Source: Campylobacteraceae bacterium | GTDB taxonomy: Bacteria; Campylobacterota; Campylobacteria; Campylobacterales; Sulfurovaceae | Direction of reading: 5' to 3' | DNA: 38,389 bases | NCBI GenBank assembly: GCA_027014605.1 | Contig: JALWDJ010000042.1 | Coordinates: 1-38,389, forward strand | In this document: piece by piece, positions 12,784 through 38,024 of the stretch | How positions within the stretch are numbered: the stretch's first letter is position 1 | Layout: the number at the start of each line of letters is the position of its first letter | Made by a program: the position numbers and the translations under genes | Notes under the pieces: generated by a model | What the model saw: only the letters and a program-made list of their open reading frames with translations | Told to the model about the DNA's origin: nothing | The model's database searches: none

Positions 12784-12786
12784 ATA

Positions 12787-15390
12787 TTAAAATAGATTAG
12801 CATTTTTATCTACCCATTTTAGATACTCAATAATATCCTTAACCTCTTGCTCTTTCATATGCTGATTTGGCATTCTTAAGTTAAAGTAATCGATCATCCC
12901 TTTTACATAAGGCTCTTTATACTTACTAGCTGGGTTCATAATAAAATCTTTAACCCACTGTTCACCATTCTCATGTCTTTGTAAAACACCTGTTAAATCA
13001 GGACCAGAACTTACTTTACCAATAACATGACAACCACTACAACCACCTTCCCCAAATGCTCTCTCACCAGCTTGTGCTGCAGGAGATTGAGGAGTAGCTA
13101 CTTTTCTTACAAGTAAATCTTTAGCTCTAATCCCAACATCAGCAGTCTTAACCATATATTGCCAAATCATATTTTCAAATAGAACAGCTTTTTCATAATC
13201 TCCAGCTTTAACCGCTTCGTCAGATTTCTCTTTCTGCTCTTTAATCTTACTATATTGGTCAAGTGCATCCTCTACAAGGTTTTTAACAACAGGATATTTT
13301 TCATAATGGTTAGCTTTTAAGAACTTAACAACACTCTGAATAACAGCATCAGTTGCACTGTTAACTGCAACAGTCTTATCATATTCAGCTTTTAACTGCT
13401 CTTTTGACATAGATTTCATCTTAAGCTTTTGAGCTGAAACATATTTTTTATTAGGGTCCTTAACCATTAGATAACCCATCATTTCTAGGTGTAACGCAGA
13501 ACAGAACTCTGTACAATAATATGGAAATACTCCCTCATTATCTGCTTTAAAAGTTAATGATACTGTTTTTCCTGGTTCTAAGGATGCATGAACATTATAA
13601 TCATCTACAGTAAATCCATGAGTCTCATCTTCTGCTCTCTCAAGATTTGTTAAGTAGAATGTTACAGTGTCACCTTTATTTACAGTAACTCTCTCTGGAT
13701 TAATATGAGAACGAACTACAGTTCCATATACATAGACATGATTACCCTTTCTCTCAATATGCTCCTGCCCTGCTAGAGTCTTACCTGGATGAGAATTACC
13801 TGTAAATGGATTTGTTCCCATCTTATATCTAACTTCAGGATGTAACTTACTAGCTCTAATTGCTACAGCTTGATGAGGTTCACCTAGAGGTATTGGCATA
13901 TCTACGAGCATATCCATCTTTTTACCACTAATATCAATTAGTTGATGATTTTGTGGATGAAGTGGACCAACTGGGTCAAATCTATCAATTGCAAGTTTAT
14001 TTAGTGCTATGATATATTTTCCTTGTGGGTCTTCAGATTTACCCTCCATTCCACATAGGTGACCAATATTATAATGAACATTTATTTTATCTAAAACTTT
14101 AAGATTTTTATAATCCCATTTTACAACTTGACTATCAACATAAAGTGAAGTATAGATTACACCATCTTTCCATTTTGCACCAAATTGATTGTGTAAAGGT
14201 CCAAGACCTAATTCAACTTGACCGTGAAGTGCCTTTTTCATGTCTAAAATAGGGATACCATACGGATCTTTTCCTGAATATTCATGATTATCTATAAGTT
14301 TTTTAATTTTAGACCACTTATATACAGATGCGTGAGTATCCAATTTACCACAAACAACAATATATTCACCATCAGGAGATACATCAACACCGTGAGGTGA
14401 TTTTGGTTCAGGAACTAAAAATAGTGCATCATTTTTAACAGCTACTTCAATAGGAATAACTTTATGACCATTTATAATTTTTACATTTTTAGGGTCTTTT
14501 GATAATTTGTAAAGTTTCTCCCAATTATATACATGTAGATAGTCTGTATCATTTCTACTACAACCAGCTTCAAATGGAGGCATACCAACCTCTATTCCAC
14601 CTGTGTACATCTCTGAGTTAAATGAGTTTGTAAATCCCCAACCAGCAGATGCCTCTTTACCAGAGTCTGATAAATCTTGCATATATGGTGGTAACTCAAT
14701 AGTAAAAGAGTCATTTGCATCAATTCTTCCAATTTTTGGATCAAAGCTCCATACTGTTACACCACCTCTATAAGTCTCTTTATACTCTTCTATTGGGTGA
14801 TAGTTATTATCTAATGGTGCAGCATATTGACAAGCCTCTAAAATATGTTTAGAGTTTGGTGTAAAAAATGAGCCACCATGTTCAGATTTAAATACAGGAT
14901 TTACAACAATCTGCTTAGTTACAAAGTCATTTAAATCAATTACTGCAATTCTAGGATTTGCTTTATCATTAATAACAAGCCATTTACCATCATATTTACC
15001 ATTAGTCTCAGATAGTGCTGGGTGGTGTGTATCTCCCCAAGTTATCTGTTTACCTCTAATTTTACCTTCTGCTAAAATTTTTTTTGTATCGTCATCATAC
15101 CCATACCCTTGCCAAGGTTCAGGTGTAAATACAGCTATATATTTAAGTATCCTCATAGTTGGAACACCATAAACAAGCATATGACCAGATTGTCCACCTG
15201 AACTAAATACGATAAACTCATCTCTACCACCTGTTGGTGTATAGGTTTTAGCTGCATGGATTATATCAGTCTCAGTTAAACCTCTTTTTTTCATTATCTT
15301 AGATAACTCACCACTACTAGCAGTTAAAAATGTTGCCGCAACTGTAGTACCAATAAGTATCTTAGATAACTTATCAAAGATATTACCCAT
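12787..15390 (-). CDS. nosZ: Nitrous oxide reductase, clade II, with C-terminal cytochrome c domain
   Basis: Reduces N2O to N2 in the periplasm. The 867-residue protein has a Sec-type signal peptide (residues 1-25, no twin arginine), the sign of clade II rather than clade I NosZ. The beta-propeller carries seven His candidates for the CuZ tetranuclear cluster: DTHHP (two, about 121-122), EHGG, SPHGV, GLGPLHN, NIGHL and GEPHQ. The cupredoxin domain holds the CuA site, HGFTVDDYN and CTEFCSALHLEMMGY near 626-637. A linker leads to a haem c domain with CSGCH near 784-788, which lets small cytochromes donate electrons directly. AAGGAG lies before the ATG. It is transcribed away from its maturation genes and follows the regulator and sensor-like genes. 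Confidence 0.98.
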   Translation of the reverse strand: MGNIFDKLSKILIGTTVAATFLTASSGELSKIMKKRGLTETDIIHAAKTYTPTGGRDEFIVFSSGGQSGHMLVYGVPTMRILKYIAVFTPEPWQGYGYDDDTKKILAEGKIRGKQITWGDTHHPALSETNGKYDGKWLVINDKANPRIAVIDLNDFVTKQIVVNPVFKSEHGGSFFTPNSKHILEACQYAAPLDNNYHPIEEYKETYRGGVTVWSFDPKIGRIDANDSFTIELPPYMQDLSDSGKEASAGWGFTNSFNSEMYTGGIEVGMPPFEAGCSRNDTDYLHVYNWEKLYKLSKDPKNVKIINGHKVIPIEVAVKNDALFLVPEPKSPHGVDVSPDGEYIVVCGKLDTHASVYKWSKIKKLIDNHEYSGKDPYGIPILDMKKALHGQVELGLGPLHNQFGAKWKDGVIYTSLYVDSQVVKWDYKNLKVLDKINVHYNIGHLCGMEGKSEDPQGKYIIALNKLAIDRFDPVGPLHPQNHQLIDISGKKMDMLVDMPIPLGEPHQAVAIRASKLHPEVRYKMGTNPFTGNSHPGKTLAGQEHIERKGNHVYVYGTVVRSHINPERVTVNKGDTVTFYLTNLERAEDETHGFTVDDYNVHASLEPGKTVSLTFKADNEGVFPYYCTEFCSALHLEMMGYLMVKDPNKKYVSAQKLKMKSMSKEQLKAEYDKTVAVNSATDAVIQSVVKFLKANHYEKYPVVKNLVEDALDQYSKIKEQKEKSDEAVKAGDYEKAVLFENMIWQYMVKTADVGIRAKDLLVRKVATPQSPAAQAGERAFGEGGCSGCHVIGKVSSGPDLTGVLQRHENGEQWVKDFIMNPASKYKEPYVKGMIDYFNLRMPNQHMKEQEVKDIIEYLKWVDKNANLF

Positions 15391-15457
15391 ATCTTCTCCT
15401 TATTAAATTTTAGTATTAAATACAGTGAAATATTAATATAAATTTAAATAGAAAGGT

Positions 15458-15471
15458 TTGACTTAGGGCAA
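15458..15471. promoter_or_regulatory. Crp/Fnr-family box upstream of nosZ
   Basis: TTGAC-TTAG-GGCAA matches the dyad of FNR/NNR-type sites (TTGAY-N4-RTCAA) except for one base in the second half. Its centre lies about 74 bases before the nosZ ATG. An A/T-rich -10 candidate (TATATT, 15440-15435 on the minus strand) would put the transcription start near 15424-15427 and the box near -40, the class II activator position. A Crp/Fnr regulator is encoded 0.8 kb away. The site is seen; the binding protein is inferred. Confidence 0.5.
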
Positions 15472-15490
15472 AATATTCTTGCTTTTTATT

Positions 15491-16237
15491 TTAATATTTT
15501 TTTAATTTTTTTAATTCAGCTTTTAATCGTTTTAATTTAATATTTGAGTGCATTAACTCCTCTAATGCCTCAATTATTAAATCCTCTTCCTCTCTTAAAT
15601 CAATATTAATAAGTATATCTTCAGCTTCATTATCTATCTTATCTATATCTTTTATTGATTTATCTATTTTATTTATTAATCTGTCTAAACTATTATCTAT
15701 TTTTAGAATGTGATATGCTAAATATAATAACAGTATAAATAGAAATGCTAATAGGATATACTCTACTTTTTTATAGAAATTAGAGATTAAAATATTACGC
15801 TTTTGATTTATATCTAATAGTCTATCAAACTCTATAACTAACTCTATATTTTGATTATATATATCTTTGACTATTTTTTCTAAAACTATATTTGAATATG
15901 GAGTTATAGTTTTCATCTCTCTTTTAAACTCTTGAGTCTTATAATAAAATCTATTTAAGAGTTTAATTATATGCGCAGCTTCTCTTTTTTCTAAAATAGA
16001 ATTTATATTTTGATAAAAGTGTTTAATTGAGCTATCTAATTTATTAGTTGATACAACACTATGTCTATATATATAAAATATCTCTTTAGATATATCTTGA
16101 GTAGATGCTTTTTGTTGATTTATCTTTTTTATAAAATTTATATTATTTTGATTTTCATCTGAGATTATATTAAGAAGCAGAACTAATGCTAATAATAGTA
16201 TTAAAATAGTTGTGCCAATTATTTTTATTCTTTTCAT
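15491..16237 (-). CDS. Orphan two-TM sensor-like membrane protein
   Basis: A 248-residue protein of no family I can name with confidence. It has a short basic N-terminus, TM1 (about 6-23), an all-helical periplasmic segment of some 135 residues (24-158), TM2 (159-178), and a cytoplasmic tail of about 70 residues that is acidic and then lysine-rich, with coiled-coil character. This is the topology of chemoreceptor or histidine-kinase input modules (the periplasmic part resembles four-helix or DAHL-type sensor domains), but no kinase, HAMP, methyl-accepting or cyclase domain follows. It contains no cysteine. It lies 8 bases after the Crp/Fnr gene and 100 bases before nosZ, so a role in sensing N2O/NO/nitrate or in membrane support of NosZ is possible but unproven. 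Confidence 0.6.
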   Translation of the reverse strand: MKRIKIIGTTILILLLALVLLLNIISDENQNNINFIKKINQQKASTQDISKEIFYIYRHSVVSTNKLDSSIKHFYQNINSILEKREAAHIIKLLNRFYYKTQEFKREMKTITPYSNIVLEKIVKDIYNQNIELVIEFDRLLDINQKRNILISNFYKKVEYILLAFLFILLLYLAYHILKIDNSLDRLINKIDKSIKDIDKIDNEAEDILINIDLREEEDLIIEALEELMHSNIKLKRLKAELKKLKKY

Positions 16238-16245
16238 ATATTATC

Positions 16246-16896
16246 CTAATTTTTATAGATTTCTTCTAGTCTATCTCTATTTATTATAGAAATAATACCT
16301 TGTTTAATAGAAATTATATTATCTCTTTTTAATCTACTTAATACTCGTGATAGAGTAGCTGGTTGAATATGCAAAATTAGTGCAATATCATGTCTTTTTA
16401 ATCTATTAAATCTATTTAAATCATCTCCTAACATCATAGCAACTTTAGATACGGCATCAAATATAAACTCTCTATCTATTAAAAGTTTTATTTTATTAGA
16501 TTGATAAAGTACTCTATTTACAAATTTTAAAGTTAATATATTAGAATTTAAAAATTTTTTTTTAAAAAATTTATAATCAATAGTCAAAATTGATGAGACC
16601 TCTATTGATGATATATTGGAAAAAAAAATCATACTATCTTCTGTTAAATTATCTATTTGAGAGATAAGCATATCTTTTTCTATAAAATATAAAAATATCT
16701 CATTATTATATTTATCTATCTTATAAGCCTTAGCTAAACCTCTAATTAAAAATATTAATTTATCTGTTCTATCCTTTTCATAAAATAAAATAGAATTTTT
16801 CTTATAGTTTTGAACTGTAGAGATTGAATATAGCATATCAATTTGATTACTATCTAAACCTTTAAATAGTGATAGCGATTTAATTATATTTCTCAT
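16246..16896 (-). CDS. Crp/Fnr family transcriptional regulator (Cys-less, nos-linked)
   Basis: A 216-residue protein with an N-terminal cyclic-nucleotide-binding-like beta-roll (about 1-115), a dimerisation helix (about 120-145) and a C-terminal winged helix-turn-helix (RHDIALILHIQPATLSRVL, about 168-186). It contains no cysteine at all, so it cannot bind a [4Fe-4S] cluster like FNR; it also lacks the cAMP-binding RxS motif. This suits the Nss/NNR/DNR-like regulators that respond to NO, N2O or nitrate, and Nss proteins control respiration in Wolinella. It is divergent from nosB and upstream of the sensor-like gene and nosZ, with a Crp/Fnr-type box before nosZ, so control of this cluster is the natural inference. 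Confidence 0.88.
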   Translation of the reverse strand: MRNIIKSLSLFKGLDSNQIDMLYSISTVQNYKKNSILFYEKDRTDKLIFLIRGLAKAYKIDKYNNEIFLYFIEKDMLISQIDNLTEDSMIFFSNISSIEVSSILTIDYKFFKKKFLNSNILTLKFVNRVLYQSNKIKLLIDREFIFDAVSKVAMMLGDDLNRFNRLKRHDIALILHIQPATLSRVLSRLKRDNIISIKQGIISIINRDRLEEIYKN

Positions 16897-16992
16897 TTCC
16901 TACTTTTTAATATTATTGATGAAACAATTATAACATTTTTAAAAGAATTTAAAACAACCTTTAAAAATTAGTTAATTTTTATAGTCTTATTG

Positions 16993-17001
16993 TGATATAA
17001 T
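16993..17001 (+). promoter_or_regulatory. Extended -10 promoter of the nosB operon
   Basis: TGATATAAT is a perfect extended -10 element 58 bases before the nosB ATG. The -35 region is poor (TAATTT), as is usual for activator-dependent promoters. A GTTAA half-site at 16971-16975 and its imperfect partner centre about 40 bases before the predicted start, where a Crp/Fnr activator could bind. The element itself is clear; the activator site is weak. Confidence 0.5.
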
Positions 17002-17058
17002 TCAACACACATATATTTAAATTATATTTATTATAAATATAACTAAAGGACAAGTAGT

Positions 17059-17838
17059 ATGCATCCAAGTTTAATTAAATCTCGAGTTTTTGCAGGATTA
17101 GCATTAATTATTTTAATAGTAGCATTTATACTACCCATAGTATCTTTTCATGGTGTAATGAATAAAATTGATAGTGGAAAAACTGATGAGATATCAGAAT
17201 TTTCTAAAACTATCTGGAATATCTATAATCATGGTAGATATAAATCGGTATCGACACCAAAAGAGGCATACAATAATCTTGATAAGATGATAGAAGAGAG
17301 TGCAGAGATTGGAGTTGCTTCAATTCCAATATGGGCAGTATCACTTGAAGCACCAAACTACCCAAAAGAGGCATTTCCACAAGGTATTCCCGTATTTTTT
17401 CACTTTGATGGATATAGTGGAGAGGTTCATGAGATGAATACTATTAATCACTATGTAGGTATGGACCCTATGTGGGTTGGAGGGCATATTGAAAGAGCTA
17501 TTGGACCTTATGCGCTACTAACTTTAGCACTAATTATGATATTATTTATAGCTTATAATAATAAAATATTAACATATTTAATGCTTATCCCTGTAATCTT
17601 ACCACTACTATTTGTAGCAGATTATGCCTATTGGCTCTATTGGTTTGGACATAACCTACATGATTGGGGGGCTTTTAAGATTAAACCATTTATGCCAACA
17701 GTATTTGGAGATGGGAAAATAGCACAATTTACAACCCACTCCTACCCAACTATTGGATTTTATTTATTAATTGCAATTAGTCTATTGAGTCTATTAGCAT
17801 TTTTTGCAAGACGAAAAGCATTAAAAGAGACAAAATAG
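17059..17838 (+). CDS. nosB: NosB-like membrane protein of clade II nitrous oxide respiration
   Basis: A 259-residue inner-membrane protein with one N-terminal helix (about 8-30), a soluble loop of about 110 residues rich in Trp, His and acidic residues, then three C-terminal helices (about 150-168, 170-190, 229-248). The segments HFDGYSGEVHEM and FGHNLHDWGAFKIKPFMP carry conserved-looking His/Met residues. Position at the head of the nosDGC1C2HFY series identifies it as NosB, a membrane protein confined to clade II clusters and needed for N2O respiration in Wolinella succinogenes; its exact job is unknown. AAAGGA precedes the ATG. In Wolinella nosB follows nosZ directly; here nosZ is on the other strand. 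Confidence 0.82.
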   Translation: MHPSLIKSRVFAGLALIILIVAFILPIVSFHGVMNKIDSGKTDEISEFSKTIWNIYNHGRYKSVSTPKEAYNNLDKMIEESAEIGVASIPIWAVSLEAPNYPKEAFPQGIPVFFHFDGYSGEVHEMNTINHYVGMDPMWVGGHIERAIGPYALLTLALIMILFIAYNNKILTYLMLIPVILPLLFVADYAYWLYWFGHNLHDWGAFKIKPFMPTVFGDGKIAQFTTHSYPTIGFYLLIAISLLSLLAFFARRKALKETK

Positions 17839-17842
17839 TTAT

Positions 17843-19060
17843 ATGTTATCATCTATTAAGTATCTTATACTATTTTCCACTCTATTAGTAGCAAATATAT
17901 TACAAGATACTATTGATAAAGCCTCATCTGGAGCTATATTAAAACTTCCTAATGGAGTCTATAGAGGCTCTATTTTAATAGATAAACCCATCTCTATAAT
18001 TGGAATGGGAGATAGTGTTATTATAGATGGACTTGGAAAAGGTAGTGTTATTACTGCTAAAGGTTCTTATATTACACTAAAAAATTTAACTATCACTAAT
18101 AGTGGTTCACGACATGAAAATCTTGATGCAGGAATTAAACTTAGCAATGGTAGTCAAAATGAGATAAGTAACTGTAGAATTAAAAACTCTCTATTTGGTA
18201 TAGATTTACAGATGGTAAATAGCTCTATTATTCAAAATAACTATATAACTTCGAAAAATTTACCACTTGGACTTAGAGGTGATGGGCTAAGACTTTGGTA
18301 TAGTAATGATAATGTCATAAAAGGTAACCATCTATATAAATCAAGAGATATGGTTGTATGGTACTCACACGGTAATAGAATTGAGAAAAATCAAGGAGAG
18401 TGGAGTAGATATTCGCTACACTTTATGTATGCAGGTAAAAATTTTGTAAAAAATAACCACTATAAATTCAATAGTGTTGGTATCTTTTTTATGTATTCAC
18501 AAGATACCATAGCTACAGGTAATATTATAGAGAGTTCACTTGGTGCTACAGGTATGGGAATAGGATTAAAGGATGCATCAAACTTTACTCTAAAAGATAA
18601 CACTATACTATATTGTGCACAAGGAATGTATATAGATAGAAGCCCTTTTGAACCAGATACACATAATTGGATAGAGCATAATAGACTCCTCTATAATGCA
18701 GAGGCGATACATTTTCACTCTTTGAGTATTAATAATATTATTAAAAATAATACTATACAAGGAAATATAGAGGATATTGTAAATGATAGTAAAGCAGATA
18801 GGGGTAAGGAGGAGACAAATTTAGTTATCAATAACTATTGGGATAACTATAAAGGGTTTGATAGAGATAATGATGGTATAGGAGATACATCTCATCAAGT
18901 ATATAAATATGCTGACCAGATGTGGGTTTATAATCCTGATGTAAAATTTTTTTATGGAAGTCCAATAATATCAATACTAAATTTTTTAGCAAAATTAGCT
19001 CCATTCTCAAAACCACTATTTTTGCTAGAGGATAAAAAACCAAGAATAGATAAAATTTAA
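17843..19060 (+). CDS. nosD: NosD, periplasmic copper-insertion protein
   Basis: A 405-residue periplasmic protein with an N-terminal signal peptide (about 1-17) and a right-handed parallel beta-helix made of CASH/PbH1 repeats (NGVYRGSILIDKPISIIG, then repeated N-x-I and G-N-x-I rungs from about 60 to 320). The C-terminal NNYWDNYKGFDRDNDGIGD motif is typical of NosD. With the NosFY ABC transporter it is needed for assembly of the CuZ cluster of NosZ. It starts four bases after nosB. The last 35 residues include a hydrophobic stretch (IISILNFLAKLAPF), as is common in NosD. Confidence 0.94.
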   Translation: MLSSIKYLILFSTLLVANILQDTIDKASSGAILKLPNGVYRGSILIDKPISIIGMGDSVIIDGLGKGSVITAKGSYITLKNLTITNSGSRHENLDAGIKLSNGSQNEISNCRIKNSLFGIDLQMVNSSIIQNNYITSKNLPLGLRGDGLRLWYSNDNVIKGNHLYKSRDMVVWYSHGNRIEKNQGEWSRYSLHFMYAGKNFVKNNHYKFNSVGIFFMYSQDTIATGNIIESSLGATGMGIGLKDASNFTLKDNTILYCAQGMYIDRSPFEPDTHNWIEHNRLLYNAEAIHFHSLSINNIIKNNTIQGNIEDIVNDSKADRGKEETNLVINNYWDNYKGFDRDNDGIGDTSHQVYKYADQMWVYNPDVKFFYGSPIISILNFLAKLAPFSKPLFLLEDKKPRIDKI

Positions 19061-19070
19061 AAGGAATAGC

Positions 19071-19805
19071 ATGGCTAAAGTAGAAACAGATAGAAGAAAG
19101 TTTATAAAATACTCTACTCTAGGAGTATTTGCACTTATTACAGTAGGTGGAGTTGCTATAAGTCCCTATTTGGTAAAACCTGAAAATAGATTAAGACCAC
19201 CAGGGGCATTAAGTGAAGATGAGTTTTTAGGACTCTGTATTAAATGTGGACAGTGTCTTCAAGTCTGTCCCTATCACTCTATTAAACTAGCAGATATTGC
19301 TAAAGGAATGGGGGTTGGAACACCTTATATAGATGCTACTAGAAGAGGTTGTTATGCCTGTAGTGCTGTTCCATGTGTTTTAGCATGTCCAAGTGGTGCA
19401 TTAGATCATAATTGCTCTAAGCCTGAAGATATAAAAATGGGAGTAGCCATATTAGAAAATCCTAATACCTGTTTAGCAATTAATAAAACTCCTCTACCAG
19501 ATAACTATCTTGATAAGATGATTAAATTTAATAACTCTGTAAGAAATAGAACTCCTGAAGAGGATGAGTTACTTAAAAAGATGAGTGGTTATAAAGGAAA
19601 ACAGTGTACTCTATGTGCTGATATCTGTCCTATTCCAAATCCTATCAGTGCTATTGCTATGGTTCCTCATAGTAAAGGTGGATATAAACCTGAGATTTAT
19701 GATGGATGTGTTGGTTGTGGTGCTTGTGAAGATATATGTCCAACCTCTAAACCATCAATTATTATAAAGCCTAGAACTACATATAATGAGATTTATCAAA
19801 GTTGA
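19071..19805 (+). CDS. nosG: NosG, Tat-exported four-cluster ferredoxin (NapG-like)
   Basis: A 244-residue periplasmic iron-sulfur protein. The N-terminus has a twin-arginine signal (TDRRKFIKYS at 6-15, followed by a hydrophobic stretch). Four [4Fe-4S] motifs follow: C56-x2-C-x2-C-x3-C66, C94 to C106 (the variant CYACSAVPC-x3-C), C179 to C186, and C213-x2-C-x2-C-x3-C223. NapG/NosG partners the membrane ferredoxin NosH as a quinol dehydrogenase that feeds electrons to the periplasm. Here it is flanked by nosD and the cytochrome genes, so the acceptors are probably NosC1/NosC2 and NosZ. A tatA gene occurs 10 kb downstream. Confidence 0.93.
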   Translation: MAKVETDRRKFIKYSTLGVFALITVGGVAISPYLVKPENRLRPPGALSEDEFLGLCIKCGQCLQVCPYHSIKLADIAKGMGVGTPYIDATRRGCYACSAVPCVLACPSGALDHNCSKPEDIKMGVAILENPNTCLAINKTPLPDNYLDKMIKFNNSVRNRTPEEDELLKKMSGYKGKQCTLCADICPIPNPISAIAMVPHSKGGYKPEIYDGCVGCGACEDICPTSKPSIIIKPRTTYNEIYQS

Positions 19806-19813
19806 GGATAGAG

Positions 19814-20389
19814 ATGTTAAATAATCAAAAAGTAAAATTCCTATTTATAATACTAATATTAATTTTAGTTGGTTGTGAAGATAATAAAAAGAGAGATAAA
19901 CAATCAACTCAAATCTCAACTCCCAAAATTGAAGTTATTGAAGGTAATGGCACAAAAGAGATTAAAGTAGAAGCTAAAAAAAAGGATAATATTACTATTA
20001 AATCAAAAAATAGTAACTCTTTTTATTATGATAAAAAGGGTGGTAATGAGAAAGAGTCACATAGAACTGCTCTTGATGCCTATACTCATATTAGAAGTCC
20101 TTATGAGAGAGTTCAGGTATCTCTATTAGTTAGACAACTAAGTAGTAATTTTAGATTAAAATGTTCTGCTTGTCATGATGATTACGCTAATGGAGTAGTA
20201 GGACCATCACTTTTAGGTAGAGATGAAGATTATATCTATAATAAGATTATGGATTTTAAAACAGGTAAAAGAGATAATCCTTTTATGAAAGATTTATTAG
20301 CAAAAATGAGTAATAAAGAGATTAAAGGTATTGCAAAAGAGATATATGAATTTAATATTCAAATTCAAAAGATGAGGATAAAAAGATGA
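19814..20389 (+). CDS. nosC1: NosC1, monohaem cytochrome c lipoprotein
   Basis: A 191-residue monohaem cytochrome. I chose the ATG at 19814 because GAGG lies six bases upstream; the in-frame TTG at 19802 has no Shine-Dalgarno. The N-terminus is hydrophobic and ends in a lipobox (LILVGC, lipid anchor at Cys21), followed by a charged linker of about 80 residues and the haem site CSACH (117-121) with a compact C-terminal helix domain. It matches the position and type of NosC1, proposed to carry electrons from NosGH towards NosZ. The nosC2 start overlaps its stop. A sequon (EGNGT) occurs in the linker. Confidence 0.85.
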   Translation: MLNNQKVKFLFIILILILVGCEDNKKRDKQSTQISTPKIEVIEGNGTKEIKVEAKKKDNITIKSKNSNSFYYDKKGGNEKESHRTALDAYTHIRSPYERVQVSLLVRQLSSNFRLKCSACHDDYANGVVGPSLLGRDEDYIYNKIMDFKTGKRDNPFMKDLLAKMSNKEIKGIAKEIYEFNIQIQKMRIKR

Positions 20390-20886
20390 AAAATATAGTT
20401 GTAGGAGTATTAACACTCTTAATCTTAGCTACTATGGGATATGTTGCTTCTCAAGGTGAAGCATATAATGGTGGAGAGCATGGAAAAGTGATAAAAGATA
20501 TAGGTAAAAAGAGTACAAAAGTTACTAAAATAACTAATGAAAAGAGTGATAGAGAGAAAGAGCAAGAAGAACTAACTCATCTAAGGGAGAAAGCTGGAAA
20601 TATCGGTGGATTTAAAGTTAGTGATGAGTATAAGAGTAAATGTGCATCATGTCATGGAGTTGATGGTAGTGGTATGCAGTATGGTAAAAAACTTATGGGA
20701 CCTAAAATATTTGGACAGAGTGAAGAGGAGATATATAAAAAGTTAGATGACTTTAAATCAGGAAGAGTAGAGAATATGATTATGAAAGGATTATTAATGC
20801 ATCTAAGTCAAGATGATTTAAAGAGATTTGCAAAAGAGATAGGAGAGTTTCCAGCTCGTGCTAAAGCACTAAAAGATAAAAAGTAG
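20386..20886 (+). CDS. nosC2: NosC2, small monohaem cytochrome c
   Basis: A 166-residue cytochrome with an N-terminal hydrophobic segment (about 4-21; a signal peptide or uncleaved anchor), a charged linker of about 55 residues, and one haem site CASCH (86-90). Met residues in GMQYGKKLMGPKIF are candidates for the distal ligand. Its C-terminal region (EEEIYKKLDDFKSG through KRFAKEI) parallels NosC1, so the two look like diverged duplicates. It overlaps nosC1 by four bases (ATGA) and precedes nosH. By analogy with Wolinella it belongs to the electron-transfer module to NosZ. Confidence 0.85.
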   Translation: MKNIVVGVLTLLILATMGYVASQGEAYNGGEHGKVIKDIGKKSTKVTKITNEKSDREKEQEELTHLREKAGNIGGFKVSDEYKSKCASCHGVDGSGMQYGKKLMGPKIFGQSEEEIYKKLDDFKSGRVENMIMKGLLMHLSQDDLKRFAKEIGEFPARAKALKDKK

Positions 20887-20904
20887 TAGAGATTAGGAAT
20901 AGAG

Positions 20905-21810
20905 ATGGATATATACAACATTAGAGCAACAATTAGAAATACAACTTTTTTATCTACATTTTTTAAAAAAGATAGAGATGGAAAAACAAAGATTAGTTAT
21001 AGAATGAAGAGATGGATATTGGTTATCTCTATTCATCTACTATTCTTTTTATCATTCTTTATAGATATTCAGACACTAGAGGGGACACTTAATGGCTCAA
21101 GATTTTTAGGATTTCATCTTATAGATGTATTTACAACGCTAGAGATGTTTCTAGCAAAACACCATCTACATACAAATATTATAATTGGCGTTACTACTAT
21201 AATTATATTTTATCTATTGGTTGGTGGTAGAAGTTATTGTGCTTGGGTATGCCCTTATGGACTCTTAAGTGAGATTGGAGAGAAGTTACACGATAAATTA
21301 GTAGCTAAAAAGATAATTAAAAATAGAAAATTTGACCATAGAGTAAAATATCTCTTTTGGACTATGTTTCTAATTCTCTCTGCTACAAGTGGATATTTGG
21401 TATTTGAGACTTTTAATGTTGTTGGAATTTTAAGTAGATTTATAACTTATGGTTGGAGTTTAGCACTTGCTTGGGTATTGGTTGTATTTTTAATAGAGGT
21501 ATTCTACTCAAGAAGAGCATGGTGTAGTTATGTATGTCCAATAGGTACAACTTATGGTATGATAGGAAAAGCATCGGCATTTAGAGTTGAGTGGAATGAT
21601 AATTGTGACCACTGTATGGTCTGTCATGATGTCTGTTTTGAAAATCAGGTATTAGAAATTACAAAAGCAAAATATGATAAACAGAGAGAAGAGAAAAAAA
21701 TCAAAAAAGAGTATATAACAGGAGCTGATTGTACTCTATGTGGTAGATGTATAGATGTCTGTCACGCTGATGCTCTAAAGTTTGATTTTAGGTTAAAGAG
21801 TTTAGTTTAA
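20905..21810 (+). CDS. nosH: NosH, membrane-bound ferredoxin quinol dehydrogenase (NapH-like)
   Basis: A 301-residue protein with about four membrane helices (35-55, 90-108, 148-168, 182-202). Two Cx3CP motifs (C112/C116 in YCAWVCPYG and C207/C211 in WCSYVCPIG) lie at membrane boundaries as in NapH, and two [4Fe-4S] sites follow on the cytoplasmic side (C234-C244 and C276-C286). NapH/NosH oxidises menaquinol with its partner NapG/NosG. The second ferredoxin motif is canonical; in the first, the Pro after the last Cys is replaced by Phe. It lies between nosC2 and nosF in the usual clade II order. Confidence 0.93.
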   Translation: MDIYNIRATIRNTTFLSTFFKKDRDGKTKISYRMKRWILVISIHLLFFLSFFIDIQTLEGTLNGSRFLGFHLIDVFTTLEMFLAKHHLHTNIIIGVTTIIIFYLLVGGRSYCAWVCPYGLLSEIGEKLHDKLVAKKIIKNRKFDHRVKYLFWTMFLILSATSGYLVFETFNVVGILSRFITYGWSLALAWVLVVFLIEVFYSRRAWCSYVCPIGTTYGMIGKASAFRVEWNDNCDHCMVCHDVCFENQVLEITKAKYDKQREEKKIKKEYITGADCTLCGRCIDVCHADALKFDFRLKSLV

Positions 21811-26498: not shown

Positions 26499-28253
26499 AT
26501 GAACAGTAAACAATTATTAACTCTACAGACAATATCAACTTTACCTCTTCTGCTATTTGTGCTAATATATGCTAACAATATATCTATATTGTATCTATCT
26601 ATACCTATAGTTTTAACTATATTTTTAATATATAATTTTATTAGTTTTAGGAAAAAGACTACTATTACAAAGCCCCCTCTACTACTAATATTAGTTATTA
26701 GTTTTCTATTTTATTCATTTTATCATCTTGGCTCAAAAGAAGCACCTCAAACATTTGAGAAGATTGATATTAATACAAATGCAAAACAGATAATATTTGA
26801 TTTAAAAGAGGAACATAAAGTAGATAAGATATGCTACTATATGGGCATTGATAGAAATATAAAATTTAGATTAGGTGCTTTTGAAAATGGAAAATGGAGA
26901 AGATTTTATAAGTATGATAAGAATTTTCCATACTCATTTCGTTGGAACTGTAAAAAAGTTAATATTAAAACATCTAAAATAGGTATTTTAGTATCTAAGG
27001 GAGAGGCTTTTCTTGGAGAGATACGATTTATAGATAAAAATCGTACAATTCCATTTACTACTAGATACGCTAAAAAATTAAATGATGAGACAGATATTAA
27101 AGTAGATACCTCATACTATGGAGGGATGTTTTTTGATGAAATATATTTTGGTAGAACTGCCTATGAGATACTTCATAAACTTAAAATATATGAGACAACA
27201 CACCCATTCTTAGGAAAAGCTCTTATTAGTCAAGGAATTAAACTATTTAAAATGACTCCTTATGGTTGGAGATTTATAAATGTACTATTTGGAGCTTTTA
27301 TGATAGTAGTTGTCTATTATTTAGCTCTATTAATCTTTAAAAACTATCTATATGCCTTTAGCTCTGCACTACTTATTACATATAGTTTTATGCACTTAAC
27401 TCAAGTAAGACTTGCTATAGTTGATACATTTGGAGTTACCTTTGTTCTAATATCATACTACTTCTTATATAGGTTTATACTAAATCAGAAATTACAATGG
27501 TTACTAATAAGTGGTATATTTTTTGGATTAGCAAGTGCTATTAAATGGTCTGCTGTATTTGCATCACTTGGATTTCTATTAATATCTATATATCTATTGG
27601 TTTCAAAATATCCTCTTAAAAAGAAATTTAAAGGATATAGATTAATTTTATATGGAATTTTGAGCTATATTATAGTAGGAGTTGGAATTTACTACTTAAC
27701 ATTCTATATCTATATGGAGAATAATAGTTTTTCCGATATCATCAAATATCAAGTAGATATGTATAAGTATCATACTGCACTAAAAGCTACACACCCATAT
27801 AGCTCTGAGTGGTGGAGTTGGATTATTGACTATAGACCAATGTGTTACTATAGAAAGATAGTAGGAGATAGATTTACCTCTATTACAGTATTTGGAAATC
27901 CTGCAATATTTTGGATTGGAGTAGCAGGAATACTATATTTAATATACTCTTTTATAAAATATAGAAAATTAGAAGTAGCATTTCTTATATTTGCATTTTT
28001 AGGACTATATCTACCATATATCTTTGTAGGAAGATTAATGTTTATATACCACTTCTATTATGCTGTTCCTTTTATGATACTATCTATAGTATATCTGTTT
28101 AAAGAGCTTATTAATAGAGATAAAATTATATATATATATTTAACCATAGTTATATCTCTCTTTTTAGCATACTACCCTGTACTTAGTGGATATCAGATTG
28201 CTAAGTGGTATGTTGATAACTATTTGGTATGGTTTAATGGTTGGTGGCTATAA
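26499..28253 (+). CDS. GT39-family (PMT/ArnT-like) polyprenyl-phosphate-dependent glycosyltransferase
   Basis: A 584-residue polytopic membrane protein that would transfer a sugar from a lipid-phosphate carrier to protein or lipid on the periplasmic face. The acidic pair typical of GT39/GT83 is in FFDEIYFGRTA (Asp213-Glu214), followed by a THPFLGK motif (compare HPPLGK of PMT enzymes). Two or three helices precede residue 75, and about nine follow 250. Unusually, a soluble segment of about 130 residues (80-210) with a beta-sandwich, discoidin-like look (KQIIFDLKEEHKVDKICYYM onward) lies before the acidic pair. ATG start 45 bases after pbpC, across a small hairpin. The acceptor is unknown. Confidence 0.85.
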   Translation: MNSKQLLTLQTISTLPLLLFVLIYANNISILYLSIPIVLTIFLIYNFISFRKKTTITKPPLLLILVISFLFYSFYHLGSKEAPQTFEKIDINTNAKQIIFDLKEEHKVDKICYYMGIDRNIKFRLGAFENGKWRRFYKYDKNFPYSFRWNCKKVNIKTSKIGILVSKGEAFLGEIRFIDKNRTIPFTTRYAKKLNDETDIKVDTSYYGGMFFDEIYFGRTAYEILHKLKIYETTHPFLGKALISQGIKLFKMTPYGWRFINVLFGAFMIVVVYYLALLIFKNYLYAFSSALLITYSFMHLTQVRLAIVDTFGVTFVLISYYFLYRFILNQKLQWLLISGIFFGLASAIKWSAVFASLGFLLISIYLLVSKYPLKKKFKGYRLILYGILSYIIVGVGIYYLTFYIYMENNSFSDIIKYQVDMYKYHTALKATHPYSSEWWSWIIDYRPMCYYRKIVGDRFTSITVFGNPAIFWIGVAGILYLIYSFIKYRKLEVAFLIFAFLGLYLPYIFVGRLMFIYHFYYAVPFMILSIVYLFKELINRDKIIYIYLTIVISLFLAYYPVLSGYQIAKWYVDNYLVWFNGWWL

Positions 28254-32553: not shown

Positions 32554-33006
32554 TTGAAAGAAATTAGATTTATTATTATTTTATCTATAAATCTTTTAGC
32601 AAATAATAACCAATCATTTTTTTCTGCTGGTATCATACATCAAAATATTAATAACTATTCAAATACACAAGCTTTAAATATATGTTTTAACTATATAAAT
32701 TACAATAGATTTGGATTTGATATTGGATATGTACAGAGTTTTTATAAAGCAGAGAATAAAAAAAATAAAAATGAGAATAGTTTTTCAGCACTCTATATTT
32801 TTCCAACATATCTTATACCACTAAATAATCATACAGCATTTAAAGCAAAAGCTGGATATGCTAAAAATGAAAATAGCAATGATGGGTTAGCTTATGGAGT
32901 TGATATTATATTTCAAATAAATCAAAAGAGTGGTTTTAGTATAGGATTTCAAAAAATGAATAAAGATATTAACTACTTTATGGTTAATACTATCTATAAA
33001 TTTTAA
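32554..33006 (+). CDS. Small exported beta-strand protein, outer-membrane-like, unknown
   Basis: A 150-residue protein starting at TTG, with AAAGG six bases upstream. A short signal peptide (about 1-16, IRFIIILSINLLA) is followed by Tyr/Phe/Asn-rich alternating segments (FGFDIGYVQSFYKA, SFSALYIFPTYLIPL, HTAFKAKAGYAKNE, FMVNTIYKF) ending in an aromatic residue. This suggests a small six- to eight-strand outer-membrane barrel. No family is recognised. It is 12 bases upstream of the OmpA-domain gene and so is probably co-transcribed with it. Confidence 0.6.
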   Translation: MKEIRFIIILSINLLANNNQSFFSAGIIHQNINNYSNTQALNICFNYINYNRFGFDIGYVQSFYKAENKKNKNENSFSALYIFPTYLIPLNNHTAFKAKAGYAKNENSNDGLAYGVDIIFQINQKSGFSIGFQKMNKDINYFMVNTIYKF

Positions 33007-33018
33007 AGGAGATAATCT

Positions 33019-33858
33019 ATGAAGATATTTTTACTACTATTATTATGGTTAATGCTAATTTCCATATTATCATATTTCTGTTTTTTAATAAAAAAGGAAG
33101 ATAGAACAAGGTATATAGATAAAAATAATACGATAAAAAAAGAGTATATAAAAGAGTTAAATAGCACTAATGCTACAAAAAATTTAAATACCTATATAAA
33201 AAAAGAAGAGATAAATAGTACAAATATTAAAACATTAAATAATTTAGCAAAAGCTAATAAAAGCAGCAACAAAGAAAATAAAATCATAGAAGATATTACT
33301 ACTTTAGTTAATAGTACAGAAAATAATAATTCATCTATTCTAAAAAAGAATAAAGCATTAGAGGGAAATACAACAGAGAATGGAGATATAAATAGCTCTT
33401 TAGAGGAAAGATTAATTGAACAATACGAGAAGGAGAGTAAAGATACAACTCCACCAACTCCCATAAAAATAGATAATAAAAATAATCTATCCATATGTAA
33501 AAAAAGATTAAAAAATATATTATCCAATAATAAGATATATTTTTATCATAATAGTATAAAAATTCAAAAGAGAAGTTATACTATTTTAGATAAAATTATA
33601 GATATATCTAAGGAGTGTAAAGATGCTAAAATATTAATTGCAGGTTATACAGACTCTTCAGGTACTAAAAAAAATAATCTAAAAATAAGCAAAAGAAGGG
33701 CAAATTCAGTAAAAGAATATTTTATAAAAAAAGGTATTAAAGAAGATAGATTAGAAGCAGTCGGATATGGAGAAGAAAATCCTATTGCCTCTAATAAAAC
33801 AGCTAAAGGTAGAGAAAAAAATAGAAGAATAGAAATTAAAATAAAAGGGGAAAGATAG
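33019..33858 (+). CDS. OmpA-domain protein with Asn/Ser/Thr-rich, sequon-dense linker
   Basis: A 279-residue protein with an N-terminal membrane helix (about 3-23), a disordered linker (25-150), and a C-terminal OmpA-like peptidoglycan-binding domain (about 165-279: ILIAGYTDSSGT, ISKRRANSVKEYF, GYGEENPIASN, GREKNRRIEI). The linker has six exact D/E-X-N-X-S/T sequons, at Asn36, 48, 66, 103, 117 and 125, the recognition site of PglB. A PglB/STT3 homologue lies 2.1 kb downstream. With a helix at one end and a cell-wall-binding domain at the other, it resembles MotB/PAL-like tethers, but the long linker is unusual. AAAGGAG precedes the ATG. Its stop overlaps the next gene by one base. Confidence 0.82.
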   Translation: MKIFLLLLLWLMLISILSYFCFLIKKEDRTRYIDKNNTIKKEYIKELNSTNATKNLNTYIKKEEINSTNIKTLNNLAKANKSSNKENKIIEDITTLVNSTENNNSSILKKNKALEGNTTENGDINSSLEERLIEQYEKESKDTTPPTPIKIDNKNNLSICKKRLKNILSNNKIYFYHNSIKIQKRSYTILDKIIDISKECKDAKILIAGYTDSSGTKKNNLKISKRRANSVKEYFIKKGIKEDRLEAVGYGEENPIASNKTAKGREKNRRIEIKIKGER

Positions 33859-34505
33859 TGAATAGTCTATTAGCAGATATATTTTGGTGTCTATTAATTG
33901 CAGGATTAATAGGTTTAGTTATTGGTTGGTTTATAGGAAAAATTAAATATAAACATGAGGTAAATAGTGTTAAAAATGAACTAAAACTTAAATTAAATAA
34001 ACATAGTGATAGATGGGAAGCAAAACTAGAGAGAATATTAACAGAAGAGAGAGAAAAATTAAGAAAAGAAAGAGAAAGATTTAATAGTGAAAAAGAGGAG
34101 CTAAATAGTAAAATTCAAGAGCTTATAAATCAACAAACTAATAAAAATATAGAATTAGATAAACTTAAAAAAAGACTTTTGATTGCTAAAGATGAAGCTA
34201 AAAAGATAGAACAAAAATTTAAAGAAGAGTTCTTAGAAGATACTAAAAAACACAAAAATAGAGTATCCATGCTTCTAAATAAAGTTGATGTTAGACACAA
34301 TAAAGAGTTAAGTGATTTAATTGAGAGTCTAGTTACAGTAGAGGGTAGAGCTATAAAAGAGGAAGCAGAACTTAGATATAAATTAAAAGATACTGAACAA
34401 AGACTTCAAAATAAAGTTGCTAGTTTAAATAGAGAAATAGAAAATTTAAAAAAAAGAGTACACAACCTTATTAATGCAAAAAAGATTAATATAAATATAG
34501 GTTAA
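33858..34505 (+). CDS. Membrane-anchored coiled-coil protein, unknown
   Basis: A 215-residue protein: one membrane helix (about 8-26, with GLVIGWFIGKIKYK) and then almost entirely charged coiled coil (35-210, heptad-like Leu/Ile spacing, rich in Lys and Glu). The start is a GTG that overlaps the OmpA-domain stop, preceded by GGGGAAAG. It resembles YhcB/ZapG- or RmuC-like membrane coiled-coil proteins in layout only. Context makes it a partner of the OmpA-domain protein, for example as a cytoplasmic scaffold on the other face of the membrane. Confidence 0.6.
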   Translation: MNSLLADIFWCLLIAGLIGLVIGWFIGKIKYKHEVNSVKNELKLKLNKHSDRWEAKLERILTEEREKLRKERERFNSEKEELNSKIQELINQQTNKNIELDKLKKRLLIAKDEAKKIEQKFKEEFLEDTKKHKNRVSMLLNKVDVRHNKELSDLIESLVTVEGRAIKEEAELRYKLKDTEQRLQNKVASLNREIENLKKRVHNLINAKKININIG

Positions 34506-34522: not shown

Positions 34523-36010
34523 GTGCATTCAAGTTTTAGTATAATAGATTGGATACTCTTCTTTTTATACTTTCTTATCTTAATCTTAACTTCAATATTT
34601 TTAAGTAGAGTAGAGATAAAGAGTTCAAGAGAATATTTTACAGGTAATAACTCTGTACCTATGTTTGCTGTAGCAATCTCAGTATTAGCTACATCTCAAT
34701 CAGCAGCCACCTTTTTAGGAGGTCCAGAGTACTCTTTTAGTAAAGATTTAACATTTTTAGGTTTTTATGCCTCTGCATTTTTAGCTATTATATTTGTAGC
34801 TAAGGTTTTAGTTCCAAAATTCTATGAGATTAAGGCAATTACAGTCTATGAGTATCTTGAGCATAGATATAGCCCAAAAGCTAAAGAGTATGCAGGAGTT
34901 ATGTTTTTAGTAGGACGACTATTTGCTAGTGGAGCAAGACTATATATTGGAGCATTAGCTATATCTATGATACTATTTTCAGATATTCTCCCATCTCATA
35001 TTGCCATATCTATAATAATTTTAGTATTAGGAGCATTAGCATATACATATTTTGGTGGAGTTAAATCTGTAATATTCTCTGATATTATTCAAGCAGTTAC
35101 ATATATTGGAGCTGGAGTTGCTGTCTTAATATATCTATATTATGCTCTAAACACAGATTTTTCTACTATTATAGAGACTCTAAATCAAGACCATAAACTA
35201 AAACTTATAGATTTCTCATTTAATGGTGGATTTACAATATGGACACTCTTAACTGGTTGGTTTCTACTAAATATAGCAGCTTATGGACTTGACCAAGATA
35301 TGACACAGAGAGTCCTTACATGTAGAGATAAAAAAGATGGTGAAAAATCTCTTATATATTCGATTATATTTACAATTCCTGTAGCTATGCTATTTTTAGC
35401 TATTGGACTACTTCTATATCTATTTTATCTACACCCAGAAATATCTGGCATTAAAGATGTCTCTATTGATAGAGGATTTAATGGAGAAAAAATTACTATA
35501 TTTATGTTCTATATATTAAATGAGATGCCAGAGGGTTTAAGAGGGTTAGTTACAGTTGGAGCAATTGCGGCCGCACTATCATCTACAAACTCAGTTCTAT
35601 CTGCTATGGCATCAGTTGCTATTGAAGATATATATAGACCTTCGTTTGGTAAAAATAGAGATGAGAGACACTTTCTAAAAGCTAGTAGAGTAGCTGTTAT
35701 TCTATTTGCAATGCTACTCTCCATAATGGCTATGGTTAGCTACTATTGGCAACAATATACATCTCTTCCACTTTTAAACTTTGCTTTAGGTGTTATGGCA
35801 TTTGCTTATGCTTCTTTACTTGGAGTATATGGAGCTGGAATATTTACAGATAGAGGAGATACTAAAAGTGTACTATTTGGATTAATTGGAGGATTTTTAA
35901 CTGTTTTAATCCTACAACCATATATTATAGGATTAAAAATAGACTTCTCTATTCAGATTATAGTTGGGACTATAGTATCATTTTTAATTACTATCTCTAA
36001 AAAGAGTTAG
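34523..36010 (+). CDS. Sodium:solute symporter (SSS family)
   Basis: A 495-residue polytopic transporter with about 13 helices. Family landmarks are SREYFTGNNSVPMFAVAISVLATSQSAATFLGGPEY near the N-terminus (Na+ site region), GGVKSVIFSDIIQ, and TVGAIAAALSSTNSVLSAMAS near residue 350, where conserved Ser/Thr bind Na+. The substrate (proline, acetate, pantothenate or a sugar) cannot be told. The GTG start has AAAGG six bases upstream, 17 bases after the coiled-coil gene. Its end overlaps the convergent stt3-like gene by 14 bases. Confidence 0.9.
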   Translation: MHSSFSIIDWILFFLYFLILILTSIFLSRVEIKSSREYFTGNNSVPMFAVAISVLATSQSAATFLGGPEYSFSKDLTFLGFYASAFLAIIFVAKVLVPKFYEIKAITVYEYLEHRYSPKAKEYAGVMFLVGRLFASGARLYIGALAISMILFSDILPSHIAISIIILVLGALAYTYFGGVKSVIFSDIIQAVTYIGAGVAVLIYLYYALNTDFSTIIETLNQDHKLKLIDFSFNGGFTIWTLLTGWFLLNIAAYGLDQDMTQRVLTCRDKKDGEKSLIYSIIFTIPVAMLFLAIGLLLYLFYLHPEISGIKDVSIDRGFNGEKITIFMFYILNEMPEGLRGLVTVGAIAAALSSTNSVLSAMASVAIEDIYRPSFGKNRDERHFLKASRVAVILFAMLLSIMAMVSYYWQQYTSLPLLNFALGVMAFAYASLLGVYGAGIFTDRGDTKSVLFGLIGGFLTVLILQPYIIGLKIDFSIQIIVGTIVSFLITISKKS

Positions 36011-38024
36011 TTTTAACTCTAAATATAGCAAAAGTTTTATTTCTAGCTACCTCTTCAAATAGATTATGGTTATAATTATTAAAGAGTAATGCTTGAATTA
36101 AAAATGAATTATATATTTTTGGTTTTAAAAGAAGAACATGACCATTATAGATTATAAGAGTTGAACTCTTTAATCCTATATAACGCTTTTTAAAAACTAT
36201 TTTATTTTTATTAAAAATTACAATTTTACTAAAGGTAGTAAAATTACCATTAATTCTTACCTCCCCTTTTTTGGTATCTATACTAAAATTAGCATCTGTT
36301 TTTAACTTAGTTTGAGATTTATCAAACTTTTTAGTTAAATACCCTATATCTATAAAATTACTAGGGTAACCCTTTCCTGTTTTTAGATTAATATTTGAAC
36401 ATAACTCAATGGCAGATAGAGTTGATAACATATTTTTATGAAGTAGTATATATATCTCTCCCTTAATATTAGGGAATTTAAAATCTTTATCTTTTAGTTT
36501 AGCTAAATACTCTATGGGATAGTTTTGTAAAAAGTAGTTCATAACTTTAGAGTAACCTCTTTTTATCCCCTTTCTATACTTATCTACAAAAAATATAGAG
36601 GCATTTCTTACAAAATTTTGATTACTACTTAATACTATCTTAGAGAAGATATAGGTATCCTGTTGATGTTTTCCATTATCTATAAGTGTATTGTTACTGT
36701 TTAGATAGTACCATAACTCCCAACCATAATCCCACCAAGCTATTAAAAAATCATCTTTTTTAAATCTCTTTTTAAAATTATCTAAAAGTCTAATATCATC
36801 TGTTGAGCTAAAAAATGAAGGAGAGATACTATATTTATTATATTTAATAATATTATTAAGTGCAAAAAGAACAACTAAAAAAATAAAAATATAACTAACT
36901 ATTTTATATATTTTTTTAGAATATTCACCCCAAGTTATAAGAATATGTTTAAATATTAAAAAGGCTCCATATACCATTGAAAATGAAAATAGTGTTACTC
37001 CATATAGTGTAAACCTAAGTCCTGCAACCATAGAGAAAAATGATATGATTACCAATGGCAAAGTTAATAACATGCTTCTATATCTAATAATAAGTGCAAT
37101 ATATCCCAAAAAAGCTATTATAAAAAATACCATAGCTCCAGATACTCTATATGCAACTTCAGATATATCAATATCTCTTGCTTCTATTACATTAGTTAGG
37201 TCTGAACTAAATTTTACTTTATTGTTAAATTTAGAATTTATCTCAATAGATGAACCCTTATTTAAATAATCGGTTACTCTACTATAGTAGCTATTATCTG
37301 TAAGGAGTAGTATAGATACTACGATAGCAGTTAAGAGTCCAATATATTTAAAATATCTTTTTCTATTATAGATTATATTATATATAAGAAATATTACTAA
37401 TATAGATAATATTATAGGTGCAGATGAGTGATACCAAAAGGCAAAAAGAGTAAGTGTAAATAAGCTATAGAATATATATTGAGTTTTTATTGTATCAATA
37501 AATCTTATTAGAAAATAGATAGCTAAGAGAGGAAAAAATGCGTTTAAAATATCTGTATCATAATATCCAAGATGGGTTCTATAGTAGTAGCTTGTCATAA
37601 GTGAGCCAATAATAGAACCGTATAGTCCAACTCTTGCTAATTTATAGTGGTTTGACAATAGTATTATAGGGATAACAACTAAAGATGATAAAAAAGCAGG
37701 TAGAAAGAATATAGCACTATTTAAATCTATTCCTGTAAGTTTTACAACTCCATAAATCAAATAAGCAGGAGCATATTCAGATATAAAAGGGTATTTAACT
37801 CCATTTAGTAGTTGCTCTGCATAATACCCATATAGTCCACTATCGGGAGTCCAAAGAGGTATAATATGACTATTATAAAAAAAATCACTACTGTTATGGA
37901 TTTGATAATATAAAATTAATCTTACTGCTATACTAAATGTATAGGCTAATAAGATATATATCATTAAAATTTTATTAGATACTTTTTTATCTTCTAAATA
38001 TAAAAACTCTTTTAATTTATTCAT
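35997..38024 (-). CDS. pglB: STT3/PglB-type oligosaccharyltransferase
   Basis: A 675-residue enzyme that transfers a lipid-linked oligosaccharide to Asn in D/E-X-N-X-S/T on the periplasmic side. The N-terminal half has about 12-13 helices. The catalytic acids are visible: TPDSGLYGYYAEQLL in the first loop, the DxD-type GYYDTDIL near residue 153, and the EL5 Glu in DISEVAYRVSG near 291. WWDYGWELWYYLN near 430 is the sequon-Ser/Thr-binding motif. The C-terminal periplasmic domain ends FNNYNHNLFEEVARN, as in Campylobacter PglB. Length fits PglB (about 710). No pgl biosynthesis genes are adjacent. It is transcribed alone and convergent with the symporter. Confidence 0.92.
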   Translation of the reverse strand: MNKLKEFLYLEDKKVSNKILMIYILLAYTFSIAVRLILYYQIHNSSDFFYNSHIIPLWTPDSGLYGYYAEQLLNGVKYPFISEYAPAYLIYGVVKLTGIDLNSAIFFLPAFLSSLVVIPIILLSNHYKLARVGLYGSIIGSLMTSYYYRTHLGYYDTDILNAFFPLLAIYFLIRFIDTIKTQYIFYSLFTLTLFAFWYHSSAPIILSILVIFLIYNIIYNRKRYFKYIGLLTAIVVSILLLTDNSYYSRVTDYLNKGSSIEINSKFNNKVKFSSDLTNVIEARDIDISEVAYRVSGAMVFFIIAFLGYIALIIRYRSMLLTLPLVIISFFSMVAGLRFTLYGVTLFSFSMVYGAFLIFKHILITWGEYSKKIYKIVSYIFIFLVVLFALNNIIKYNKYSISPSFFSSTDDIRLLDNFKKRFKKDDFLIAWWDYGWELWYYLNSNNTLIDNGKHQQDTYIFSKIVLSSNQNFVRNASIFFVDKYRKGIKRGYSKVMNYFLQNYPIEYLAKLKDKDFKFPNIKGEIYILLHKNMLSTLSAIELCSNINLKTGKGYPSNFIDIGYLTKKFDKSQTKLKTDANFSIDTKKGEVRINGNFTTFSKIVIFNKNKIVFKKRYIGLKSSTLIIYNGHVLLLKPKIYNSFLIQALLFNNYNHNLFEEVARNKTFAIFRVKTNSF
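35998..36020 (-). terminator. Possible terminator overlapping the end of the PglB-like gene
   Basis: On the minus strand AGAGTTA and TAACTCT (36020-36014 and 36009-36003) form a 7-bp stem with a 4-base loop, followed by five U residues that run into the stop codon. The stem is weak and lies within the last codons, as at carA. Confidence 0.4.

Follow-up and report, generated by a model that had tools for sequence, protein, structure and literature searches.

The window analysed here, a contig of 38,389 nucleotides from an uncultured Campylobacteraceae bacterium, encodes an OmpA-domain protein of 279 aa (33019-33858, + strand) in which a membrane helix and an OmpA-type peptidoglycan-binding domain are joined by a disordered linker dense in D/E-X-N-X-S/T sequons. 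Multi-site N-glycosylation of this linker by a canonical PglB is the best-supported reading of the sequence data, and we consider it probable. The architecture of the protein, the excess of sequons, the conservation of the motif, the residues of the canonical PglB and the sequon enrichment in exported proteins appear directly from the sequences compared below.

Architecture of the OmpA-domain protein

The ORF starts with an ATG at 33019, preceded by the ribosome-binding site AGGAG at 33007-33011. An N-terminal hydrophobic helix covers approximately residues 3-24 (33025-33090, + strand), and AlphaFold2 predicted a helix from residue 2 with a pLDDT of ~85. No lipobox was seen on inspection of the N-terminal sequence; the helix looks uncleaved and is probably a signal anchor. 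The linker, residues 26-159 (33094-33495, + strand), is mostly disordered, the pLDDT falling under 50 for almost every position from residue 46 to residue 152. The OmpA domain (PF00691) follows at residues 174-269 (33538-33825, + strand), with a Pfam profile match of 6.9e-25 and a Foldseek match of the C domain of 2.7e-13 to OmpA, Pal and related folds. In the AlphaFold2 model of the whole protein, the N-terminal helix was fairly confident and the OmpA domain confident. The pLDDT values and the PF00691 match agree with the preliminary description, made from the sequence alone, of a disordered linker between a membrane helix and a peptidoglycan-binding domain. The same description called the linker surface-accessible, which was not supported: as it would span from a putative inner-membrane helix to the peptidoglycan, the linker is probably periplasmic.

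Cys160, located just before the OmpA domain, and Cys200 are invariant and make a candidate disulfide. Asp212 and Arg227 of the OmpA domain are also invariant and are candidate equivalents of Asp271 and Arg286 of A. baumannii, which bind the peptidoglycan peptide. By sequence, the closest solved structure was the C domain of M. tuberculosis ArfA/OmpATb (Rv0899; 8e-23), a Cys of which aligns with Cys200. Rv0899 likewise combines a membrane anchor with an OmpA-type C domain, and its BON domain has a BON-like counterpart in some orthologues of the tether. However, this BON domain lies between the helix and the OmpA domain of Rv0899, whereas the Pfam profile search found none in the window protein, which, judged by its sequence, is not classed as an ArfA/Rv0899-type TM-BON-OmpA member because of this absence. 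A linker dense in sequons is not a known feature of Rv0899.

Sequon excess in the linker

All six sequons of the preliminary description were confirmed, with exact coordinates and ORF, on the + strand: DKNNT (N36, 33118-33132), ELNST (N48, 33154-33168), EINST (N66, 33208-33222), ENNNS (N103, 33319-33333), EGNTT (N117, 33361-33375) and DINSS (N125, 33385-33399). The earlier estimate was that roughly one would arise by chance. Composition-preserving shuffles of residues 27-127 gave a mean of 0.60; six sequons did not occur in any of 100,000 shuffles, and alternative linker boundaries gave P <=1e-5 for six or more. The reversed motif occurred twice in the whole 279-aa protein.

Conservation of sequons among orthologues

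The orthologue set comprised nine proteins of the same genus, including the window protein (G000). Four were compact (G000, G015, G006 and G017), and in five (G021, G007, G011, G003 and G044) a BON-like domain separated the helix from the linker, the match being weak in one orthologue (22.7 bits vs. a cut-off of 27). The linkers of the compact forms contained 6, 9, 13 and 8 sequons, respectively, and those of the BON forms 8, 9, 9, 7 and 10, all above the 0.45-0.8 expected per linker. In the trio of G000, G015 and G006, five sequon positions (those of N36, N66, N103, N117 and N125) were common to all and the others turned over; the N48 sequon was shared with G006, which has expanded it to four 15-bp units in tandem. 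Five sequon columns were common to all five BON forms. Identity within the trio was 50-56% in the linker and 81-85% in the OmpA domain. The preliminary description had asked whether orthologues keep their sequon number while the rest of the linker drifts, and this is what was found, the number being kept or increased (6-13) in the nine orthologues.

Specifically, the sequon Asn was conserved at 88% (vs. 27% for other linker Asn), the -2 acid at 89% (vs. 62% for the comparison), the +2 Ser/Thr at 92% (vs. 56%) and the two spacer positions at 37% and 49% (vs. a 44% background, that is, drifting like the background), percentages that describe a pattern and are given without a P value, as they were taken over phylogenetically non-independent pairs with an aligner that favours matching motifs. 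In addition, TM-BON-OmpA paralogues of the same genus that lack a low-complexity linker had no sequons. The retention of sequon number amid drift suggests selection for a tether with a heavy coat of sugars.

PglB homologues and the pgl cluster

Two PglB homologues were found in the genome of the window. The canonical PglB (L043:3743-5836), on a different contig from the OmpA gene, aligned with PglB of C. lari at 2.4e-165, with D56, R147, D154, D156, E319, R331, R375 and WWDYG conserved. Arg331 of PglB reads the -2 acid, and the roles of the catalytic residues are known from established PglB work. Genes for a glycosyltransferase, a phosphoglycosyltransferase, an acetyltransferase, an aminotransferase and a dehydratase lie 3' of it; they resemble genes for the synthesis and transfer of a bacillosamine-type sugar, with nearly all matches below the NCBIfam equivalog cut-offs, and their order is similar in G015 and G017. 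The sequons of the orthologues, the canonical PglB and this pgl cluster support the earlier proposal that the disordered tether is multiply glycosylated. PglB was not found in the MAGs G007 (70% complete), G044 (82%) and G071 (82%), all of which have sequon-dense homologues, possibly because of their incompleteness.

The second homologue (675 aa, 35997-38024, - strand; match 1.5e-59) keeps WWDYG, the catalytic residues and the equivalent of Arg331. The PglB homologue noted earlier at 2 kb from the OmpA gene is thus real, but it is divergent and neither the sole nor the best PglB in the genome.

Sequons in exported proteins

In 855 kb of the window genome (43% of the genome), exported and cytoplasmic proteins, approximate classes assigned by a simple hydropathy rule, contained 2.99 and 0.96 sequons per 1000 aa, respectively, vs. 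0.97 and 0.74 for the reversed motif. The -2 acid distinguished the two classes at P = 2.4e-11. With the most heavily loaded proteins left out, exported proteins still showed a 2.57-fold enrichment of Asp at -2, compared with 1.09-fold in cytoplasmic proteins. At least 4 sequons within 100 aa were present in 6 of 164 exported proteins and in none of 439 cytoplasmic ones. Among relatives, G038, which has PglB, showed 2.26 exported vs. 0.41 cytoplasmic; G031, a complete genome in which PglB was not detected, showed 1.23 vs. 0.72, with no significant effect of the -2 acid. G039 has PglB and no significant sequon enrichment in exported proteins, so the presence of PglB alone does not predict enrichment.

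The tether had been described as a dedicated glycosylated protein. This wording is not upheld, as other exported proteins of the same genome are equally or more loaded (21, 9, 9 and 6 sequons).

Several further sequon-dense proteins were observed. A predicted lipoprotein of 526 aa (L055:2175-3755, - strand) with no Pfam match has 21 full sequons vs. 2.1 by shuffling and is more extreme than the OmpA-domain tether. Two adjoining pseudopilin-like ORFs (L064:11904-12647 and 12644-13603, + strand) have 9 and 5 sequons, in each case more than shuffling yields, and are possibly N-glycosylated minor pilins. Another predicted lipoprotein (L085:16613-17380, + strand, 255 aa) carries DKNIS, DSNIS, DINIS and DKNIS in series near its N-terminus. 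A coiled-coil OmpA-domain protein (L035:4333-6078, - strand), whose ORF is possibly cut by the contig end, has 9 sequons in repeats with EQNLT or EDNLT, and similar repeat proteins occur in L019, L023 and L025. In G016, another OmpA-domain protein (L016:1162-1857, + strand) has 6 sequons in a linker rich in Gly/Ala/Val; because of this composition, sequon loading appears independent of richness in Asn/Lys.

Neighbouring genes

The start of the following gene (33858-34505, + strand) overlaps the stop of the OmpA gene. It encodes a 215-aa protein with one membrane helix, a long coiled coil and zero sequons over its whole length. Among the orthologous loci checked, this partner gene follows the OmpA gene in G015, G006, G017, G021 and G011, the G011 copy having one sequon. 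The charges flanking the helix suggest that the coiled coil lies on the cytoplasmic side. TM-BON-OmpA genes of another family in the order have a downstream neighbour whose product carries a comparable membrane helix and in some cases ends in a DUF4332 or helix-hairpin-helix-like tail. Moreover, an OmpA gene with a similar membrane-helix neighbour in G029 (L251) has 8 sequons, and one adjoining a coiled-coil match in G071 (L267) has 6.

Upstream, an ORF of 150 aa (32554-33006, + strand) with no Pfam match looks like a small outer-membrane barrel; it adjoins the OmpA gene in G006 and was not seen beside it in G015. Elsewhere, the window encodes a PMT-family membrane glycosyltransferase with PMT_2 and PMT_4TMC matches (26499-28253, + strand), and a nosZ-like nitrous oxide reductase with a cytochrome c domain together with nosD/ferredoxin genes (12787-21810).

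Proposed function and alternative explanations

In the proposed explanation, the OmpA-domain protein would be an inner-membrane-anchored, peptidoglycan-binding tether with a disordered periplasmic linker that the general PglB pathway glycosylates at multiple sites. Upon emergence of the linker in the periplasm, the canonical PglB on the other contig, rather than the neighbouring homologue, would transfer oligosaccharides to the majority of its six sequon Asn. Crowded along the linker, the glycans may then extend it from a floppy chain into a bottlebrush and keep periplasmic proteases away from it, which would space the peptidoglycan-binding domain away from the inner membrane. A probable partner of the tether, on the cytoplasmic side, is the membrane-anchored coiled-coil protein encoded next to it. 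We offer this stretching and shielding role of the glycans, in a tether joining the inner membrane to the peptidoglycan, as a tentative proposal.

The sequons might instead arise incidentally in a low-complexity linker that is AT-rich, rich in Asn/Lys/Ser/Thr and growing by tandem repeats, with glycosylation unselected. The 21 Asn in 101 linker residues and the four 15-bp tandem units of the G006 linker, which have diverged, fit this idea. However, shuffles that preserve this very composition yield the 0.6 sequons given above, N-rich 94-aa windows of cytoplasmic proteins of the same genome contained a maximum of 2 sequons (276 windows), motif positions stay while spacers drift, and the linkers of G016 and G029 are sequon-dense with another composition. 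This explanation is thus largely refuted, and we consider it highly improbable. Another view is that the linker is glycosylated as an exposed neutral sink for the general system, its glycans having no role of their own. The equal loading of other envelope proteins indicates that loading is not specific to the tether and favours such a sink, but the selective retention of motif positions and the separate sequon gains in different orthologues argue for a benefit, which makes a neutral sink unlikely.

The neighbouring PglB homologue could also be a dedicated enzyme for the OmpA-domain protein, given the distance of 2 kb and its intact catalytic residues and Arg331 equivalent. Against this, it is encoded on the opposite strand, it was not detected in G015, where the canonical PglB alone was found, and in G006 and G017 it and the OmpA gene are on different contigs, while the orthologues of all three genomes have 8-13 sequons. 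Helicobacter pullorum also has two PglB homologues, one near Campylobacter PglB and one divergent, a likeness in gene content, and its PglB2 showed no detectable activity (PMC6025236). The functional link to the adjacent homologue drawn in the preliminary description is therefore not supported, as the linkage is not conserved; the homologue was rejected on synteny as relevant to the tether, and a dedicated role is the least probable of the alternatives.

Glycosylation by the canonical PglB remains the preferred reading, and the linker may represent a wider type. It is conceivable, though we hold it with less than even confidence, that N-glycan bottlebrush linkers form a natural class of disordered periplasmic segments in which sequon saturation is kept by selection, and that this class stiffens or protects envelope tethers and recurs in several envelope proteins and in more than one family of Campylobacterota.

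Relation to known systems and significance

The protein had been thought to be without a described counterpart. An N-glycosylated Campylobacter OmpA-family protein has in fact been reported: that of C. hepaticus has three sequons and shares 89.6% identity with a C. jejuni protein already known to be glycosylated (PMC9816155). It belongs to the same phylum and envelope OmpA family and is modified at D/E-X-N-X-S/T by the pgl pathway, a likeness by family rather than orthology. However, it has three sequons as opposed to 6-13 in one disordered linker. In the literature searched, with most subscription journals outside its reach, neither a protein of such a density nor a linker saturated with sequons in this way was found described, and a literature search for Cj0599 by name gave nothing. 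GlycoTag (PMC4879521) likewise provides protein carriers for the Campylobacter N-glycan; those are engineered multi-sequon carriers for glycoconjugate vaccines, whereas the linkers of the present set occur in nature, most notably the 13-site linker of G006.

In C. jejuni, N-glycosylation has been connected with the stability of the proteome (PMC6478998). What bacteria gain from N-glycosylating dozens of their periplasmic proteins is still poorly understood, and a protein family whose sequons themselves are visibly under selection, with their number retained and their positions turning over, would offer a direct test of glycan function. Additionally, natural multi-sequon linkers may serve as templates for glycoconjugate carriers.
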